From positions 1-33,516 of the forward strand of contig SFCB01000022.1 of assembly GCA_004367505.1 (NCBI GenBank): a stretch of 33,516 nt of DNA, given 5' to 3'. Of the stretch, positions 27,462 to 33,516 are shown one piece after another (position 1 is the stretch's first letter; the number at the start of each line of letters is the position of its first letter). A model generated the notes under the pieces. That model saw only the letters and a program-made list of their open reading frames with translations, was not told the origin of the DNA and did no database searches. Made by a program: the position numbers and the translations under genes. The stretch comes from Chloroflexi bacterium OHK40 (GTDB taxonomy: Bacteria > Chloroflexota > Chloroflexia > Chloroflexales > Chloroflexaceae).

Positions 27462-28190
27462 ATGACTGAGCGCAACCTGAGCCTGATCTCGCGGCGTGGC
27501 CTGCTGAAGGGCGCGGCCGGTATGACCGGGGGCCTCGCCGCTGCGAGCTTCGCCGGCCTCTTCGGGATCAAGGCCGCCGAGGCCGCCCACGATCGCATGG
27601 ACGATGCGCAGACGATCGTCAACCTTGCCGCCACCGCCGAGACGCTGGCCACCACCTTCTACTACGCGGCGCTCACGGCGGCCCAGTTCGAGGTGAGCGC
27701 CGAGGATGTGGCCTACCTCAAGCTGGCGCTTGATGCCGAGAAGTACCACCTGGACTTTCTGGTCTCCAATGGCGGCGCGAGCCTGACCCGGCAGTTCTAC
27801 GTGCCGGCCAACCTGCTGAGCGATCCGGCGCTCTTTGTGCAGGTGGGCGCCAACGCCGAGACGGCCTTCGTGGGCGCGTATCTGGCGGCCACCCGCCGCT
27901 TCGCCGAGCTGGGCGTGCCACGCCTGGCGGCCACCACGGCCCAGCACGCATGCAGCGAGGCCCAGCACCTGGCCCTCATCCGCGAGATTGGTGGCTTCGC
28001 GCCGAACAACCTGGCGCTACCCCTGCCGATCTACTACAACGTCTCCGACGCGGTGCCGACCCTCGCGCCCTTCCTGCAGGGTGGCCAGGGCTTCATCGGG
28101 CCGGTGACTGCCCCGACCGCCGCTCAGATCACCGCCGTCCTCGGCGGGGTGAAGTCCGACCCGACCAAGCCGTTCACGGCGGTGTTCTAG
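27462..28190 (+). CDS. Tat-exported ferritin-like domain protein
   Basis: 242 residues. A twin-arginine signal is at the N-terminus (SRRGLLK at 10-16, hydrophobic core to about 35, likely cleavage after AEA near 42). The mature part is a four-helix ferritin-like domain of the kind found in a family of secreted bacterial proteins. Helices start at DAQTIVNLAATAETLATTFYYAAL and EDVAYLKLALDAEKYHLDFL, with later helices at NAETAFVGAYLAATRRFAEL and ACSEAQHLALIREIGG. The carboxylates and His (Glu in TAETLATTF, Glu and His in DAEKYHLDF, Glu and His in CSEAQHLAL) are placed as in di-iron helices, but metal binding is inference. ATG 27462 has GAGGAGG. It precedes the ECF sigma/anti-sigma pair. Confidence 0.85.
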   Translation: MTERNLSLISRRGLLKGAAGMTGGLAAASFAGLFGIKAAEAAHDRMDDAQTIVNLAATAETLATTFYYAALTAAQFEVSAEDVAYLKLALDAEKYHLDFLVSNGGASLTRQFYVPANLLSDPALFVQVGANAETAFVGAYLAATRRFAELGVPRLAATTAQHACSEAQHLALIREIGGFAPNNLALPLPIYYNVSDAVPTLAPFLQGGQGFIGPVTAPTAAQITAVLGGVKSDPTKPFTAVF

Positions 28191-28317: not shown

Positions 28318-28348
28318 TTGCAACGCCCGGCCGTCACCTATGTATAAT
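28318..28348 (+). promoter_or_regulatory. Possible promoter of the ECF sigma/anti-sigma pair
   Basis: A perfect -10 TATAAT (28343-28348) has TTGCAA (28318-28323) upstream at a long 19-bp spacing. An ATG overlapping this -10 (28340) is then unlikely to be the sigma start, which favours GTG 28397. No obvious ECF-type GGAAC/CGTC autoregulatory promoter was seen. Confidence 0.5.
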
Positions 28349-28396
28349 GTGACAGCACCTCAGCTGCAGCCGCGGCTAGCAGAAAGATCGCACCGG

Positions 28397-28987
28397 GTGA
28401 GCCAGACCATTCCGACCGTGCGCGCCAACCTGGGCGCCCTGCGTGACGACGAGTTGCTGGCCCTCGTCGCGCGCCACGACGAAGGGGCCCTGGGCGTGAT
28501 CTACGACCGCTACAGCGGCCTCGTCTACACGATTGCCCTGCGTATCACCGGCGACCGCCAGACGGCCGAGGAGGTGATGCAAGATGTCTTTCAGGGGGTC
28601 TGGCAGACGGCCGGAAGCTACCAGGCAGGGCGTGGCGCCTGTGCGGCCTGGCTGATCGGCATCGCGCGCCACCGCGCGATCGACGCCACCCGCAGCCGTC
28701 GCGAGCGCGCCCGGGCCCGCGAGCAGACGATTGAACAGGGGGCGGTGCTGGAAACTGCCGGCGGCACCGATCCCGAGCTGAGCGACCTGGATGTGCGCGA
28801 GGCGGTGCGCGCGGCCCTGGATGCCCTGCCGCCCGCCCAGCGTCAGGCCGTTGAGCTGGCCTACTACGGCGGCCTGACCCGCGTAGAGATCGCCGAACGC
28901 CTCGGCGAGCCCATTGGCACCGTGAAGACGCGGCTGCGCCTGGGCCTGCTGAAGCTGCGTGATCTGCTGCGGCCTCTCGCGGAGTGA
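28397..28987 (+). CDS. ECF-type RNA polymerase sigma factor
   Basis: Group IV sigma factor of 196 residues from GTG 28397. Region 2 spans about 24-95: ALGVIYDRYSGLVYTIALRI, DRQTAEEVMQDVFQGVWQTA, and AWLIGIARHRAIDATRSRR. Region 4 spans about 138-192: LPPAQRQAVELAYYGGLTRVEIAERL, then PIGTVKTRLRLGLLKLRDLL. No extra domain is present. The frame is open up to ATG 28340, which would add 19 residues but overlaps a -10 element. The RskA-type anti-sigma gene starts 12 bp after the stop. The pair probably forms a SigK/RskA-like envelope-stress switch; the signal and regulon are unknown, and the ferritin-like protein just upstream is a candidate member. Confidence 0.92.
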   Translation: MSQTIPTVRANLGALRDDELLALVARHDEGALGVIYDRYSGLVYTIALRITGDRQTAEEVMQDVFQGVWQTAGSYQAGRGACAAWLIGIARHRAIDATRSRRERARAREQTIEQGAVLETAGGTDPELSDLDVREAVRAALDALPPAQRQAVELAYYGGLTRVEIAERLGEPIGTVKTRLRLGLLKLRDLLRPLAE

Positions 28988-28999
28988 AGCGATACGACA

Positions 29000-29797
29000 A
29001 TGCAGCCTGAACCATCCGACGAGATTACTGACCTGTTGGTCGCCTATGCCCTCGGGGTCCTCGAGGCCGAGGAGATGCAGCGTATCGGTCGCCTGCTCGA
29101 CGAGCGGCCCGAGTTGCGGCCCAGCCTGGCCGAGCTTCAGGCGACGGCGGGCCTGCTCCCCTATGGGTTGCCCCTCGCTGCCCCTCCCGCCGATCTGCGC
29201 CAGCGCACGCTGGACCACGCCGTCGGTCGGGCGCCCCGTGCGCCCTCTGCCGGCGCGGCCAACGCGGGGCGCCGGCTGCGTGGCTGGCTCTACGCGCTTG
29301 GCGGCCTGGCAGCGGCGGCCCTCGCGGCGCTGGCCTTCACCCTTGCCGGACTCGGCAGCGCCCGCGCTGAGCTTGCCGCCACTCGCGAGCGGCTCGCCCA
29401 GGTTGAGCAGCAGCTTGCGCTCGCCGAAGGCCAGCTCGCCGCCGTGCTCACCGAGCAGTCCCAGCTAGCGCAGGCTGTTGTCGGCGCCGATAGCGTGAGC
29501 GCGCTGGAGGGGGCTGGTGGTCTGGCCACCGCCCTGCAGTCCGCCGATGGCGAGGTGGTCATAGCGGCCCGCTTGCCGCCCCTGGCCGCCGACCAGGTGT
29601 ACCAGTTGTGGGTGATCGCTGGCCAGAGTGCTCCGGTGAGCGGTGGAACCTTCACGGTTGACAGCGAGGGCTACGGGGTGATCGCCCTGGGCCCCGGCGC
29701 CGCCCCCTCCGGCGTAACCCTTGCCGTGACCGCCGAGCCGGCGCCCGGTAGCCCCGGCCCAACCACGCCCATCCTCGTCTCCGGGCAGTTGTCTTGA
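29000..29797 (+). CDS. RskA-type membrane anti-sigma factor
   Basis: 265 residues. The N-terminal anti-sigma segment (about 5-75, DEITDLLVAYALGVLEAEEMQRI) lacks the zinc-binding HxxxCxxC pattern, as in RskA-type factors. One membrane helix is at about 97-118. A coiled-coil-like stretch rich in Ala, Glu, Gln and Leu follows (about 121-160). The extracytoplasmic RskA domain is at about 165-265, with DQVYQLWVIAGQSAPVSGGTF and the closing PGPTTPILVSGQLS. It would hold the neighbouring sigma factor at the membrane until proteolysis. The ATG at 29000 has only a distant GGAG, so coupling to the sigma gene 12 bp upstream is likely. Confidence 0.9.
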   Translation: MQPEPSDEITDLLVAYALGVLEAEEMQRIGRLLDERPELRPSLAELQATAGLLPYGLPLAAPPADLRQRTLDHAVGRAPRAPSAGAANAGRRLRGWLYALGGLAAAALAALAFTLAGLGSARAELAATRERLAQVEQQLALAEGQLAAVLTEQSQLAQAVVGADSVSALEGAGGLATALQSADGEVVIAARLPPLAADQVYQLWVIAGQSAPVSGGTFTVDSEGYGVIALGPGAAPSGVTLAVTAEPAPGSPGPTTPILVSGQLS

Positions 29798-30042: not shown

Positions 30043-30885
30043 TCACTGGTAGTTGTGATGCCGGGCCAGGAAACCGAGCAGTACCCCGTGAAAGGCTCGT
30101 GGCGCCTCGACCTGCGGGAAGTGGCCACAGCGCGGTATGGTGATGAGATGGGCGCCGGGGATGGCGGACCGCGCGGCCTGCCCGCTCGAGGCCAGTGGGA
30201 AGATCCGGTCCTGCTCGCCCCAGATCAGCAGGCAGGGTGCGCGTAGCTCGCCGAGGCGGGCGCGCATGCCGGTACGCGCGAGGTCGGTGGCGTCGTAGCG
30301 GCGGCTGAGGGCCATGAGCGCGCGGCGGTTCTCCCGGCCCTGGAGGGCGGCGCGCCCCCGCGCAAGCGCCGTGGTGCTGAGGTGGCGCTCGGGTTCGAAG
30401 AATGCGGCCGTGAGCATGGCCCGCACGACCATCGGGCGAGCCGAGAGCCAGAGCAGTGCTGCCCCAAGCACCGGCCAGCCACCGGCCCGGGTGAGCGGCG
30501 AGGCCTCGGCGAAGCCATCGCTTGCCACCAGGGTGAGGCTCGCCACGCGGTGGGGGTGCTGGAGCGCCAGCGCCAGCGCGTACTTACCACCCATCGAGTG
30601 GGCCACCAGGCTTGCCCGCTCCTCCCCGAGCGCGTCCAGCAGGCCCGCGTAGAGGTCGGCCAGCAGCGCCAGGGAATAGGGCGCGTTGGCCGGCTTGTCG
30701 GAGCGCCCGAAGCCGAGGCTATCGACGGCCAGGGCCCGGTAGCCCGCCTGCGCAAGGAGCTCCCCGGTAGGTCGCCAGTCTTCGGCGGAGCCGGCGAAGC
30801 CGTGGAGCAGGAGTACCGCCGGACCATGGCCTGCCTCGAGCATGTGGAGCCGGTAGCCACCAACCGTCACGAATCGACTCTGCAT
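30043..30885 (-). CDS. Alpha/beta-hydrolase (serine type)
   Basis: 280 residues from ATG 30883-30885, which has GGAG five bases upstream. The frame continues far upstream across the intergenic region but without coding character. The oxyanion motif LLLHGFAGS is at about 25-33. Nucleophile Ser97 lies in AHSMGGK, acid Asp226 in GEQDRIF and base His255 in CGHFPQVE. The cap domain is in the middle (about 120-200). VDSLGFGRSDKP is the usual strand-turn of epoxide hydrolase and meta-cleavage hydrolase relatives. Ser as nucleophile distinguishes it from OleB in this window. The substrate is unknown. It is divergent from the helicase-like gene, with 182 bp between. Confidence 0.85.
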   Translation of the reverse strand: MQSRFVTVGGYRLHMLEAGHGPAVLLLHGFAGSAEDWRPTGELLAQAGYRALAVDSLGFGRSDKPANAPYSLALLADLYAGLLDALGEERASLVAHSMGGKYALALALQHPHRVASLTLVASDGFAEASPLTRAGGWPVLGAALLWLSARPMVVRAMLTAAFFEPERHLSTTALARGRAALQGRENRRALMALSRRYDATDLARTGMRARLGELRAPCLLIWGEQDRIFPLASSGQAARSAIPGAHLITIPRCGHFPQVEAPRAFHGVLLGFLARHHNYQ

Positions 30886-31067
30886 AGGTCTCCACTTCCC
30901 GATTGCGCGTCTGCCGGGATGGGTTGCCGTGCCCGGCGCGGGTAGAGCCACCGCGAGCGACCGCCGCCTTGGCAGGACGTTACATCTCGCTCGCTCGGGG
31001 TGGGCAGGTATGCCTATGCTACAATAAAATCTGCCCTGTGCGCGCCGTGCCACAGGAGGCGTAGCCC

Positions 31068-33516
31068 ATGAGCGATCTCGTCGAGGCCCTGCACAACCTG
31101 GCCCGTGAGCGCAGCCGGGGCGGCCCGAGCCCACTGATCGCCGTGCGCAGCCTGGCCGCCCGCGAGGGATCGCGCATCAGTCACCTTGGCATCAGCCAGC
31201 AGCTCGCTCAGGCCTGGGTGAGCGTTACCGGCGAGCCGTTCCGTCCCCACCAGTCGCTCGGGCTGGCGGCCATGCGCCGTGGCGAGCCGCTAGCCCTGGT
31301 GGGGGGGCTCGCTGCCCGCCAGTCGCTGCTTCTGCTCGCGGTGGAGGTGCTGCGGGCCGAGGGCGCTGCCACCGCCCTTCTGCTGGCCCCCGATGAGTCT
31401 GCCGCCGCCGCGCTGCGCGGTGAGCTACAGCGCCTCTTCGCGGCCCTGGGCGAGCCGCTGCGCGCGGGCCTGGCCTGTGGCCCCGAGGCCCGGCTGGCGA
31501 TCGGCGCGCAGGTGGTGGTGAGCACCCCCGCCGCCCTCCACGAGCGCCTGCTCCGCCACCACGCCCGGGCGTGGGCGAGTTTCTGGCCGCGCCTGCGTCT
31601 GTTGCTGGTCATCGATGCCCATTGTTACGATGGGCTCGGCATTGCTCACGTGGGCTGGCTGTTGCTCCGGGCCCGGCGCCTGTGCGCCCCTGTCCACCCG
31701 CCTCGGGTTGCGGCGACGGTGGCTCCGGTGGCGGCCTTCGAAGAGGGTCTGGCGCTGCTCTCCGGCGAGGCATGGCGCGTGGTGCCGGCCAATGATACGC
31801 CACGGCCCCGCAGCGCCGTAGCCCTCTGGCGCTCCACCGCCGACCAGCCCCGCGAGGCGGTGGCTGTGGCCCTCGGTCTCGCTCGCGCCGGCGCCAGGGC
31901 CCATATCGTCTGCGCGCCCTTCGAGGCGCCACTGCTCCGCGCGCTTGTTGGCCCCGACATGCCGGCGGTGACGGTCGGGCCGACTCCGCTTCCAGCCTCG
32001 GCCCAGATCCTGCTCGGGGTTGGGGTGGCGCGCCACCTGCGCGCCTGTAGCGACAGCGCGGCGCTTACGGTGCTCGTTCTTGGCGATGACCCCGCTGAGC
32101 GGACCCTGGCCCGGCTCGCCGCCCAGGGTGCTGAGCCGATCCCGCTCCTCGATGGCCCGCCCGCCGCGTGGGTGGTCGCGCCTGGCAACGCCTATCTCGC
32201 CGCCCAGCACCTCGTCTGTGCCGCCTCCGAGCTGCCGCTCGCCGCCGCCGAGGTGGCCGCCTGGGGCGTCGAGTCGATCGTCGAGCGCCTTGTGCTGCAC
32301 GGTCAGCTCGTGCGGCTCCCGGGGCCTGAGCCCGCCTGGCAACCTCTCCCGACCGGGAACGATCCCTACGGCCTCTTCGATCTGCGATCGGCCGGCGCCG
32401 ACCCCGTTCGCATCCGCGATGATCAGGGGACGCCCCTCGGGACCCTCGATCTCCCCGCCTTCGACCGCTGGGGCTTCGCCAGTGCCTCTCTGCCGCCTGT
32501 GCGCGGCGGCTTCCGTGTGCTCGGCCGGGATGAGGAGGGGCTCGAGCTGACCATCCGGGGCGCACCCGATGCCCGGCGCACCATGCCACTGCGCCGCTGC
32601 GCCGTGCGTGTGCGCGACCAGCGCGAGTCGCGCCGGCTGCGGGGCCGTGAGGTGGCCTGGGGGCGCGTGGTAGTGGAGGAGGAGGTCTACGGCTACCGCG
32701 AGGTCTCGCCTGGCAACGCTCCGGTCGAGCGGGTGATCAGCCCGCCCCTGAGCGCGAGTTGGAGCGCGCCAGCGCTCTGGGTAGAGCTCCCGGCGGCGGC
32801 GAGCGCCGGCGGCCAACTGGCAGGCTGGTCGCTCGTGATCGCCCTGCAACTTCAGGCGCTCTGTACCGTGAGCGACCTTGTGCCCGTCTACGACGATGAA
32901 GCGCGGCGGATCTACTTCGTCGACGCGCAGTCCGGCGGCAACGGCCTGGCGGCCTGGCTCTTCGCCGAGCTCGAAACAGTGCTGCCGATCGCCTACGATG
33001 TGGCCCTCGACTGCCGGGCCGACCCGTTGCTGGAGCCGCTCGCCCGTGCCGATAAGGACTGGCTCCTGGCGTTGCTCGCGGAGCAGGCACCTGGCCCGCC
33101 CCCGGCGGTTCCACCGTCGCGCCCGGCCACTGTGGCGGAGGAGCCCGCCAGCCCCGAGCCACGCCGCGATGCGCCGGAACCACCCGCAAGCCAGCGGCGT
33201 GCCGATCCGCCCGTTGCCAGGCGCGATCCTACTGCGCCGGCGGGCGCGCCGCGCCGGGCCGAAACCGCCACGCCTGGGACGCCTCCCCCGAGCCGAGGGC
33301 AGGATGGGCGCCCGCCTGAGCGCCGTGAGCCCTCCGCTCCGCGTGGCCGCCCGCGCCGGGTCGAGCCCACCCGGTCCCACGGGCGAACGGGAGCGCCGGC
33401 GCAGCCCCCCCTCCCGATTGAGCCCGTACCGCCGCCAGAGCCCGCTGCGCCGCGTCCGACGGCCATACCATCGGTTGCGCCGGCCCGCCCCGAGCCTCCC
33501 GGTGCTGCCCACGACC
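31068..33516 (+). CDS. Catalytically degenerate MrfA/YprA-like DUF1998 helicase homologue, 3' end cut by window
   Basis: Open from ATG 31068 (AGGAGG upstream) through the window end, at least 816 codons. The order follows DEAD/DEAH helicases of the MrfA/YprA type. A FRPHQ Q-motif is at 58-62. The Walker A position reads GGLAARQS (79-86) instead of GTASGKS, with the Lys lost. VVSTPAALHERLLRHH (about 152-167) matches motif Ib. Motif II is VIDAHCYDG (181-189), where MrfA-type proteins have VIDELHTYRG, so the catalytic Glu is gone. The expected arginine-finger motif is not seen. YLAAQHLVCAASELPL (about 376-391) and the DUF1998 core with VDAQSGGNG (618-626) remain, but its Cys cluster is reduced to one Cys (649). 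From about 674 the protein is Pro/Arg/Ala-rich and disordered. Probably a non-hydrolysing DNA-binding or scaffold protein. Confidence 0.8.
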   Translation, partial: MSDLVEALHNLARERSRGGPSPLIAVRSLAAREGSRISHLGISQQLAQAWVSVTGEPFRPHQSLGLAAMRRGEPLALVGGLAARQSLLLLAVEVLRAEGAATALLLAPDESAAAALRGELQRLFAALGEPLRAGLACGPEARLAIGAQVVVSTPAALHERLLRHHARAWASFWPRLRLLLVIDAHCYDGLGIAHVGWLLLRARRLCAPVHPPRVAATVAPVAAFEEGLALLSGEAWRVVPANDTPRPRSAVALWRSTADQPREAVAVALGLARAGARAHIVCAPFEAPLLRALVGPDMPAVTVGPTPLPASAQILLGVGVARHLRACSDSAALTVLVLGDDPAERTLARLAAQGAEPIPLLDGPPAAWVVAPGNAYLAAQHLVCAASELPLAAAEVAAWGVESIVERLVLHGQLVRLPGPEPAWQPLPTGNDPYGLFDLRSAGADPVRIRDDQGTPLGTLDLPAFDRWGFASASLPPVRGGFRVLGRDEEGLELTIRGAPDARRTMPLRRCAVRVRDQRESRRLRGREVAWGRVVVEEEVYGYREVSPGNAPVERVISPPLSASWSAPALWVELPAAASAGGQLAGWSLVIALQLQALCTVSDLVPVYDDEARRIYFVDAQSGGNGLAAWLFAELETVLPIAYDVALDCRADPLLEPLARADKDWLLALLAEQAPGPPPAVPPSRPATVAEEPASPEPRRDAPEPPASQRRADPPVARRDPTAPAGAPRRAETATPGTPPPSRGQDGRPPERREPSAPRGRPRRVEPTRSHGRTGAPAQPPLPIEPVPPPEPAAPRPTAIPSVAPARPEPPGAAHD

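Follow-up and report, generated by a model that had tools for sequence, protein, structure and literature searches.

The protein encoded at the end of a contig of Chloroflexi bacterium OHK40 is almost certainly a selected pseudohelicase, which keeps the predicted fold of the DNA-repair helicase MrfA (YprA) after the loss of its catalytic motifs and which, throughout the order Chloroflexales, is fused to a C-terminal Tudor domain. Because the parts needed for ATP use are gone and the C-terminal domain is of a kind with which other repair proteins grip RNA polymerase, the protein resembles a motor that has been converted into a permanent adaptor.

The window, i.e., the whole stretch of DNA analysed here, is an entire contig (C94) of 33,516 bases, and the pseudohelicase frame, whose 816 codons contain no stop, runs past its end (Table 1). 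Reading the gene beyond position 33516 had been proposed in an earlier note on this DNA, and an orthologue profile search located the missing end at the start of another contig of the same genome (C34), where 103 codons and a stop read 'PEVLPNAAAMVARLRRMREQRQ...EPRFAPGDTIVCTPYGRGEVVSSRVEDGRELLVVQFDEHGELTIDAAVSAARL...'. On the grounds of the family architecture and of its position at a contig end, this reading frame is most plausibly the 3′ end of the window gene, and thus C94 probably adjoins C34, the assembly being split within the Pro-rich linker. The same low-complexity linker is a break point in several other draft assemblies, and the gene of one relative (G032) only appears broken, owing to runs of N in the scaffold. 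Next on C34 comes a convergent gene for a PIG-V-type mannosyltransferase.

Table 1. Features of the pseudohelicase gene and of the genes preceding it in the window.
Feature	Position	Strand	Basis or remark
Ferritin-like protein with twin-arginine-like leader	27462-28190		Directly before the ECF sigma factor gene
ECF sigma factor, then anti-sigma-K (RskA_C) protein	28340-29797	+	
Divergent alpha/beta hydrolase	30043-31134	-	Long ORF overlaps the pseudohelicase start
Shine-Dalgarno AGGAGG	31054..31059	+	8 nt before the ATG; direct sequence reading
Pseudohelicase gene, 5′ 816 codons	31068..33516	+	Open frame from ATG; 3′ end probably on another contig (G000:C34:3-314)
RecA1-like domain, ~residues 45-245	31200..31802	+	AF2 model and MrfA match
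Lost Walker A site, GGLAARQ replacing TATASGK	31302..31322	+	Aligned to 24 active relatives; Lys in 0/47
Motif Ib remnant TPAALH, still present	31524..31541	+	Clade retention: P 79%, H 94%
Lost motif II site, IDAH replacing DEAH (residues 182-185)	31611..31622	+	Asp 0/47, Glu 13%
Shortened RecA2-like domain without motif VI, ~residues 246-360	31803..32147	+	GRAGR deleted in 46-47/47; predicted fold
Winged helix (HRQ1/MrfA type), including CAASELPL	32178..32357	+	Pfam PF22982, E 5.3e-6
Canopy, counterpart of MrfA OB-CON-DUF1998; zinc cysteines gone, GGxG retained	32358..33083	+	MZB E 2.9e-4 at residues 592-649; MrfA alignment to residue 671
Pro/Arg-rich linker, running off the contig	33084..33516	+	Composition; orthologue length variable; weaker constraint

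All four landmarks that the earlier note had named along with a helicase/DUF1998 layout are present in the protein (FRPHQ at residues 58-62, STPAALHERLLRHH at 152-165, CAASELPL at 384-391, and VDAQSGGNG at 618-626), and a profile search for the DUF1998/MrfA family, which it had suggested as a check, matched TIGR03817, MrfA and the HRQ1 winged helix. TIGR03817 ('helicase/secretion neighborhood putative DEAH-box helicase'), which represents the active Chloroflexota paralogues, is the nearest curated sequence family (E 2e-31, 109 bits, below the curated cut-off of 874.1 bits), while MrfA in the PDB was matched with E values of 3.5e-13 by the single sequence and 1.1e-41 by the family profile. The Pfam winged helix WHD_HRQ1 (PF22982) scored 27.8 bits, above its gathering score of 27; the MZB domain (PF09369) scored 21.9 bits in the window protein, below the gathering score of 24.2, and one orthologue (L042) passes with 24.7. 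Judged from these comparisons of sequence, the protein resembles the MrfA/YprA family beyond chance.

The predicted structure points the same way. An AF2 model of residues 1-690, built from 35 orthologues, reached a pLDDT of 91.7 and a pTM of 0.91, and MrfA chains occupied the first four places in Foldseek (best E 3.8e-37). The top match, 6znp (Z 31.5), aligned over 618 of the 690 residues at 7.0 Å rmsd, and superposition on 6zns gave 3.7 Å over 561 residues. The model, for which a comparison with MrfA had also been proposed, thus matches over its whole length, RecA-like domains included, and the architecture RecA1-RecA2-winged helix-OB-CON-DUF1998 is present in the predicted fold with a shortened RecA2. 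Two RecA-like domains, the winged helix and the GGxG-loop canopy are therefore common to the pseudohelicase and MrfA/YprA, the Bacillus subtilis DUF1998 helicase (6znp, 6znq, 6zns). Unlike MrfA/YprA, the pseudohelicase lacks Walker A, DEAH, motif VI and the zinc cysteines, has a shorter RecA2, and possesses an additional linker, helix and Tudor domain; unlike TIGR03817, it is catalytically dead, falls far below the family cut-off and forms a separate clade.

Loss of the Walker A lysine, the motif II glutamate, motif VI and the C-terminal zinc cysteines, as claimed from the window protein alone, was seen again when it was aligned with active relatives: the lysine is replaced by R84, DEAH by IDAH, motif VI is deleted and the MZB cysteines are absent. 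The loss extends to the whole clade. Regular expressions for Walker A (GK[ST]), DExH, motif VI and the four-cysteine zinc cluster each matched 0 of 70 orthologue sequences, a set that includes close relatives, and no orthologue with intact motifs was found among them; identical expressions matched 24, 18, 24 and 22 of the 24 active relatives, respectively. A residue census of 47 dead representatives against these 24 active relatives identified 135 near-invariant columns in the active set, 62 of which are kept in less than 10% of the dead sequences and 42 in at least half. Neither the Walker A lysine nor the DEAH aspartate occurs in any of the 47, the DEAH glutamate is found in 13%, and GRAGR is deleted in 46-47 of them; motif III (SAT) and motifs Ia, V and VI are lost as well. 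The dead sequences retain the HQ that precedes Walker A, motif Ib (PxxxH), H194, R201 and R204 of RecA1, N374, the winged-helix AxExP and the canopy GGxG. The zinc cluster is also missing from Dpd YprA members, according to a 2025 survey of YprA-family helicases (PMC12458937).

Matches to the protein were detected in 58 of 61 genomes (its own and those of relatives), at least one of which (G030) matched only via an active paralogue, the end of its dead gene being located on another contig. Of 400 sampled Chloroflexota genomes, the 40 Chloroflexales all gave matches, scoring 640-1002 bits, and the 360 genomes outside the order stayed at or below 149 bits; named genera with matches include Oscillochloris, Chloroploca, Viridilinea, Roseiflexus and Kouleothrix. 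The pseudohelicase is single-copy, and the dead sequences lie on one side of a branch as one group (SH-aLRT 100). In rooting with other YprA-type proteins long branches meet, and one outgroup sequence (L197), taken in the wrong frame, made a long branch. Most simply, ATP binding, hydrolysis and zinc binding were lost once, before Chloroflexales diversified.

Since active paralogues occur in the same order, the protein might pair with an active MrfA-type paralogue (TIGR03817), either as its inactive subunit or as a dominant-negative brake. However, a full-length TIGR03817 protein is absent from most Chloroflexaceae, from every sampled member of the Herpetosiphonaceae but one and from the window's own genome, and the dead protein is kept there, persisting where the active paralogue has been lost. 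This weakens a heterodimer with the paralogue, which we consider quite improbable. A separate observation on the active proteins is that in G030 a Ser/Thr protein kinase domain is fused in frame, N-terminal to an active MrfA-type helicase (L063:2347-5844).

The earlier note had argued that an open frame devoid of every catalytic part suggests a selected new role rather than decay, and had named a dN/dS well below 1 as a check. By the NG86 method, in which the high-dS pairs are near saturation, the core (first 700 codons) has a dN/dS of 0.03-0.25 over six genera: 0.13-0.15 in Chloroploca, 0.15-0.22 in Oscillochloris, 0.05-0.17 in Chloroflexus, 0.12-0.17 in Roseiflexus, 0.03-0.04 in Herpetosiphon and up to 0.25 in the sixth genus. 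The active paralogues, used as a comparison set, gave 0.06-0.13, and the tail 0.07-0.56. In addition, 28 near-invariant residues are specific to the clade, seven of which are Trp. It is because of this low core dN/dS and these newly invariant residues that decay is not accepted here, and the argument for a selected new role holds, with open frames found order-wide. A decaying pseudogene would agree with the disappearance of every catalytic motif, but in view of full-length frames across the order, the dN/dS values and the new invariant residues it has next to no chance of being correct; a recent pseudogene is ruled out by the open frames throughout the order together with the dN/dS.

What had been described as a long disordered tail is only in part so, as the Pro/Arg-rich stretch is present but proves to be a linker to a further folded domain past the contig end. 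It is followed by a conserved helix (DAxAMxARLRRxREQRE) and then by the Tudor domain, which occurs in 46 of 51 complete orthologue ORFs, is absent from all active relatives and belongs to the most strongly conserved regions of the protein. The C-terminal region was modelled as a helix plus a small beta barrel (pLDDT >90). Single-sequence Pfam searches gave DUF3553 and PcrA_UvrD_tudor, both sub-threshold, and thus profile and fold comparisons were needed. When the C-terminal family was compared with Chloroflexota PcrA tails, hhalign returned 97.7%, an E value of 2.5e-12 and 35% identity. In Foldseek, the PcrA Tudor (5dma) and the UvrD C-terminus with an RNA polymerase lobe (7egs) lead, followed by the UvrD Tudor (6yi2), CdnL and the UvrD C-terminus with UvrB (7egt), with E values of 1e-3 to 5e-3 for a domain of ~50 residues; CarD, Mfd, PHF1 and chromodomains likewise match. 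Weaker phylum-wide matches of the C-terminal profile lie mostly at the C-terminal ends of frames of 700-900 aa, and 9 of the 10 fetched are UvrD/PcrA-like (four were typed, each with PcrA TIGR01073 as its best match). These comparisons establish that the domain is homologous to the RNA polymerase/UvrB-binding C-terminus of PcrA/UvrD. A Tudor fold in C-terminal position behind a flexible stretch is common to both (5dma, 7egs, 6yi2); unlike in PcrA/UvrD, the domain is here joined to an SF2 pseudohelicase and not to an SF1 helicase.

The retention of motif Ib and of the predicted canopy fold might suit a nucleic-acid-binding clamp that has no protein partner of importance and whose tail is incidental. 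A Tudor domain so highly conserved and nearly universal in complete copies argues against such a protein, which is improbable. The linker itself varies several-fold in length, the part after residue 670 ranging from ~170 to 650 residues. The interaction role that had been attributed to the Pro/Arg-rich tail is backed, but by the C-terminal Tudor domain: owing to its fast evolution and variable length, the tail looks more like a tether than an interaction element. Degenerate repeats such as GEPPAPVRQELTGPPGG and REPPVREPPAR are observed in the linkers of L042, L052, L037, L020 and L038.

The Tudor domain of PcrA/UvrD binds RNA polymerase beta and UvrB via a TGE hairpin, the helicase interaction motif being [VIL]-D-x-x-T-G-E-[VIL]-[VILT], and four RNA polymerase-contact residues, His681, Trp684, Lys712 and Leu714, were mutated in the PcrA study (PMC5397179, PMC8318588). 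A DPLTGE hairpin of this motif is present in UvrB of the window's own genome and of three relatives; G029 and G053 fit the motif exactly, and in G000 and G042 its first residue is Phe. A loosened pattern finds similar TGE or TGD sequences in RpoB. In a mapping by spacing, an invariant Cys would take the place of His681 and a hydrophobic residue that of Lys712, while the aromatic and aliphatic character of the Trp684 and Leu714 positions appears to be kept. Since His681 and Lys712 are replaced, the PcrA-type contact may not be conserved and the partner could differ.

Tudor folds are known to have many binding partners. A pseudohelicase scaffold whose Tudor domain has a partner different from RNA polymerase and UvrB, e.g., a clade-specific protein, would account for these replacements, for the resemblance to a promiscuous set of folds (CarD, Mfd, PHF1 and chromodomains) and for the lack of a conserved neighbour, yet the best matches in both sequence and fold are all bacterial Tudors that bind RNA polymerase or UvrB, and we regard it as unlikely, though with an appreciable chance. 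We tentatively favour a pseudohelicase adaptor that works without ATP, using its Tudor domain to dock on RNA polymerase or UvrB and holding an MrfA-shaped core on a flexible leash, a mechanism that, taken in full, falls just short of an even chance. An ancestral MrfA/YprA-type helicase would have lost ATP binding, hydrolysis and zinc binding with its whole fold retained; the Tudor domain would dock, as in PcrA/UvrD, on a beta-hairpin of RNA polymerase beta or UvrB; and the tether would let a rigid core that needs no ATP extend to nucleic acid in the vicinity or to a further factor of repair or transcription. The protein may thus be no motor but a structural clamp, or a platform for recruitment, in transcription-coupled genome maintenance. 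While the catalytic loss, the order-wide selection and the family-wide Tudor fusion can be read from the sequences and the MrfA fold from the model, we infer the docking partner, the reach of the linker and a core that acts structurally on nucleic acid or protein.

No conserved operon pointing to a pathway was found among the neighbours of the orthologue loci, and this reading was dropped, as the downstream genes are not common across families: they encode enoyl-CoA hydratase, carboxyltransferase, inositol phosphatase, SSB or a BTAD protein, depending on the family. The sole recurring neighbour is a divergent alpha/beta hydrolase upstream, in several genera of family f1; in the window its ORF overlaps the pseudohelicase start, and thus the true hydrolase start is probably further in. 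In one f4 genus, a same-direction gene follows within ~35 bases (L046:7181-7864, L049:4725-5438); its product was typed as a single-strand-binding protein in L046 and has its homologue in L049, which hints at a role on DNA. In Chloroflexus, a BTAD plus HEAT-like-repeat protein is encoded downstream, abutting or overlapping the pseudohelicase (L051:7063-8097, also L038 and L050).

YprA-family proteins are central to anti-phage systems such as DISARM, Dpd, Druantia and ARMADA, and Dpd members share the loss of the zinc cluster (PMC12458937). A defence component of this sort is nevertheless very improbable here: no PADLOC model was matched, which led to its rejection, no recurring defence genes or nucleases adjoin the gene, and its single-copy, order-wide conservation is unlike that of mobile defence islands. 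As described in that source, DrmB of DISARM is likewise a YprA-family part without its own ATPase, but this canopy module, encoded apart from the helicase, has no RecA domains and works with active DrmA. Utp25, a eukaryotic helicase-like protein also termed a pseudohelicase (PMC9539457), belongs to another pathway (ribosome assembly) and another lineage, the likeness being one of description and not of sequence.

A Tudor fusion goes unmentioned in the 2025 survey (PMC12458937), as does, in its available part, a dead member of this kind. A literature search of partial coverage found no description of this pseudohelicase family. Pseudokinases and pseudoproteases are well known; to our knowledge, a bacterial pseudohelicase that keeps the complete helicase fold and occurs across a whole order is unusual. 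By one tether it unites two modules otherwise found in different repair helicases. As the pseudohelicase appears to occur in Chloroflexus and Herpetosiphon, both of them standard organisms, its partner and phenotype are directly testable. That it is a Chloroflexales-specific, ATP-independent transcription or repair factor, in which a dead MrfA helicase with a PcrA-type Tudor domain rides RNA polymerase (or UvrB) as a structural adaptor, can be advanced with doubt somewhat outweighing confidence. If true, the MrfA platform and canopy would be useful without ATP, and the order may possess a lineage-specific link between transcription and repair.
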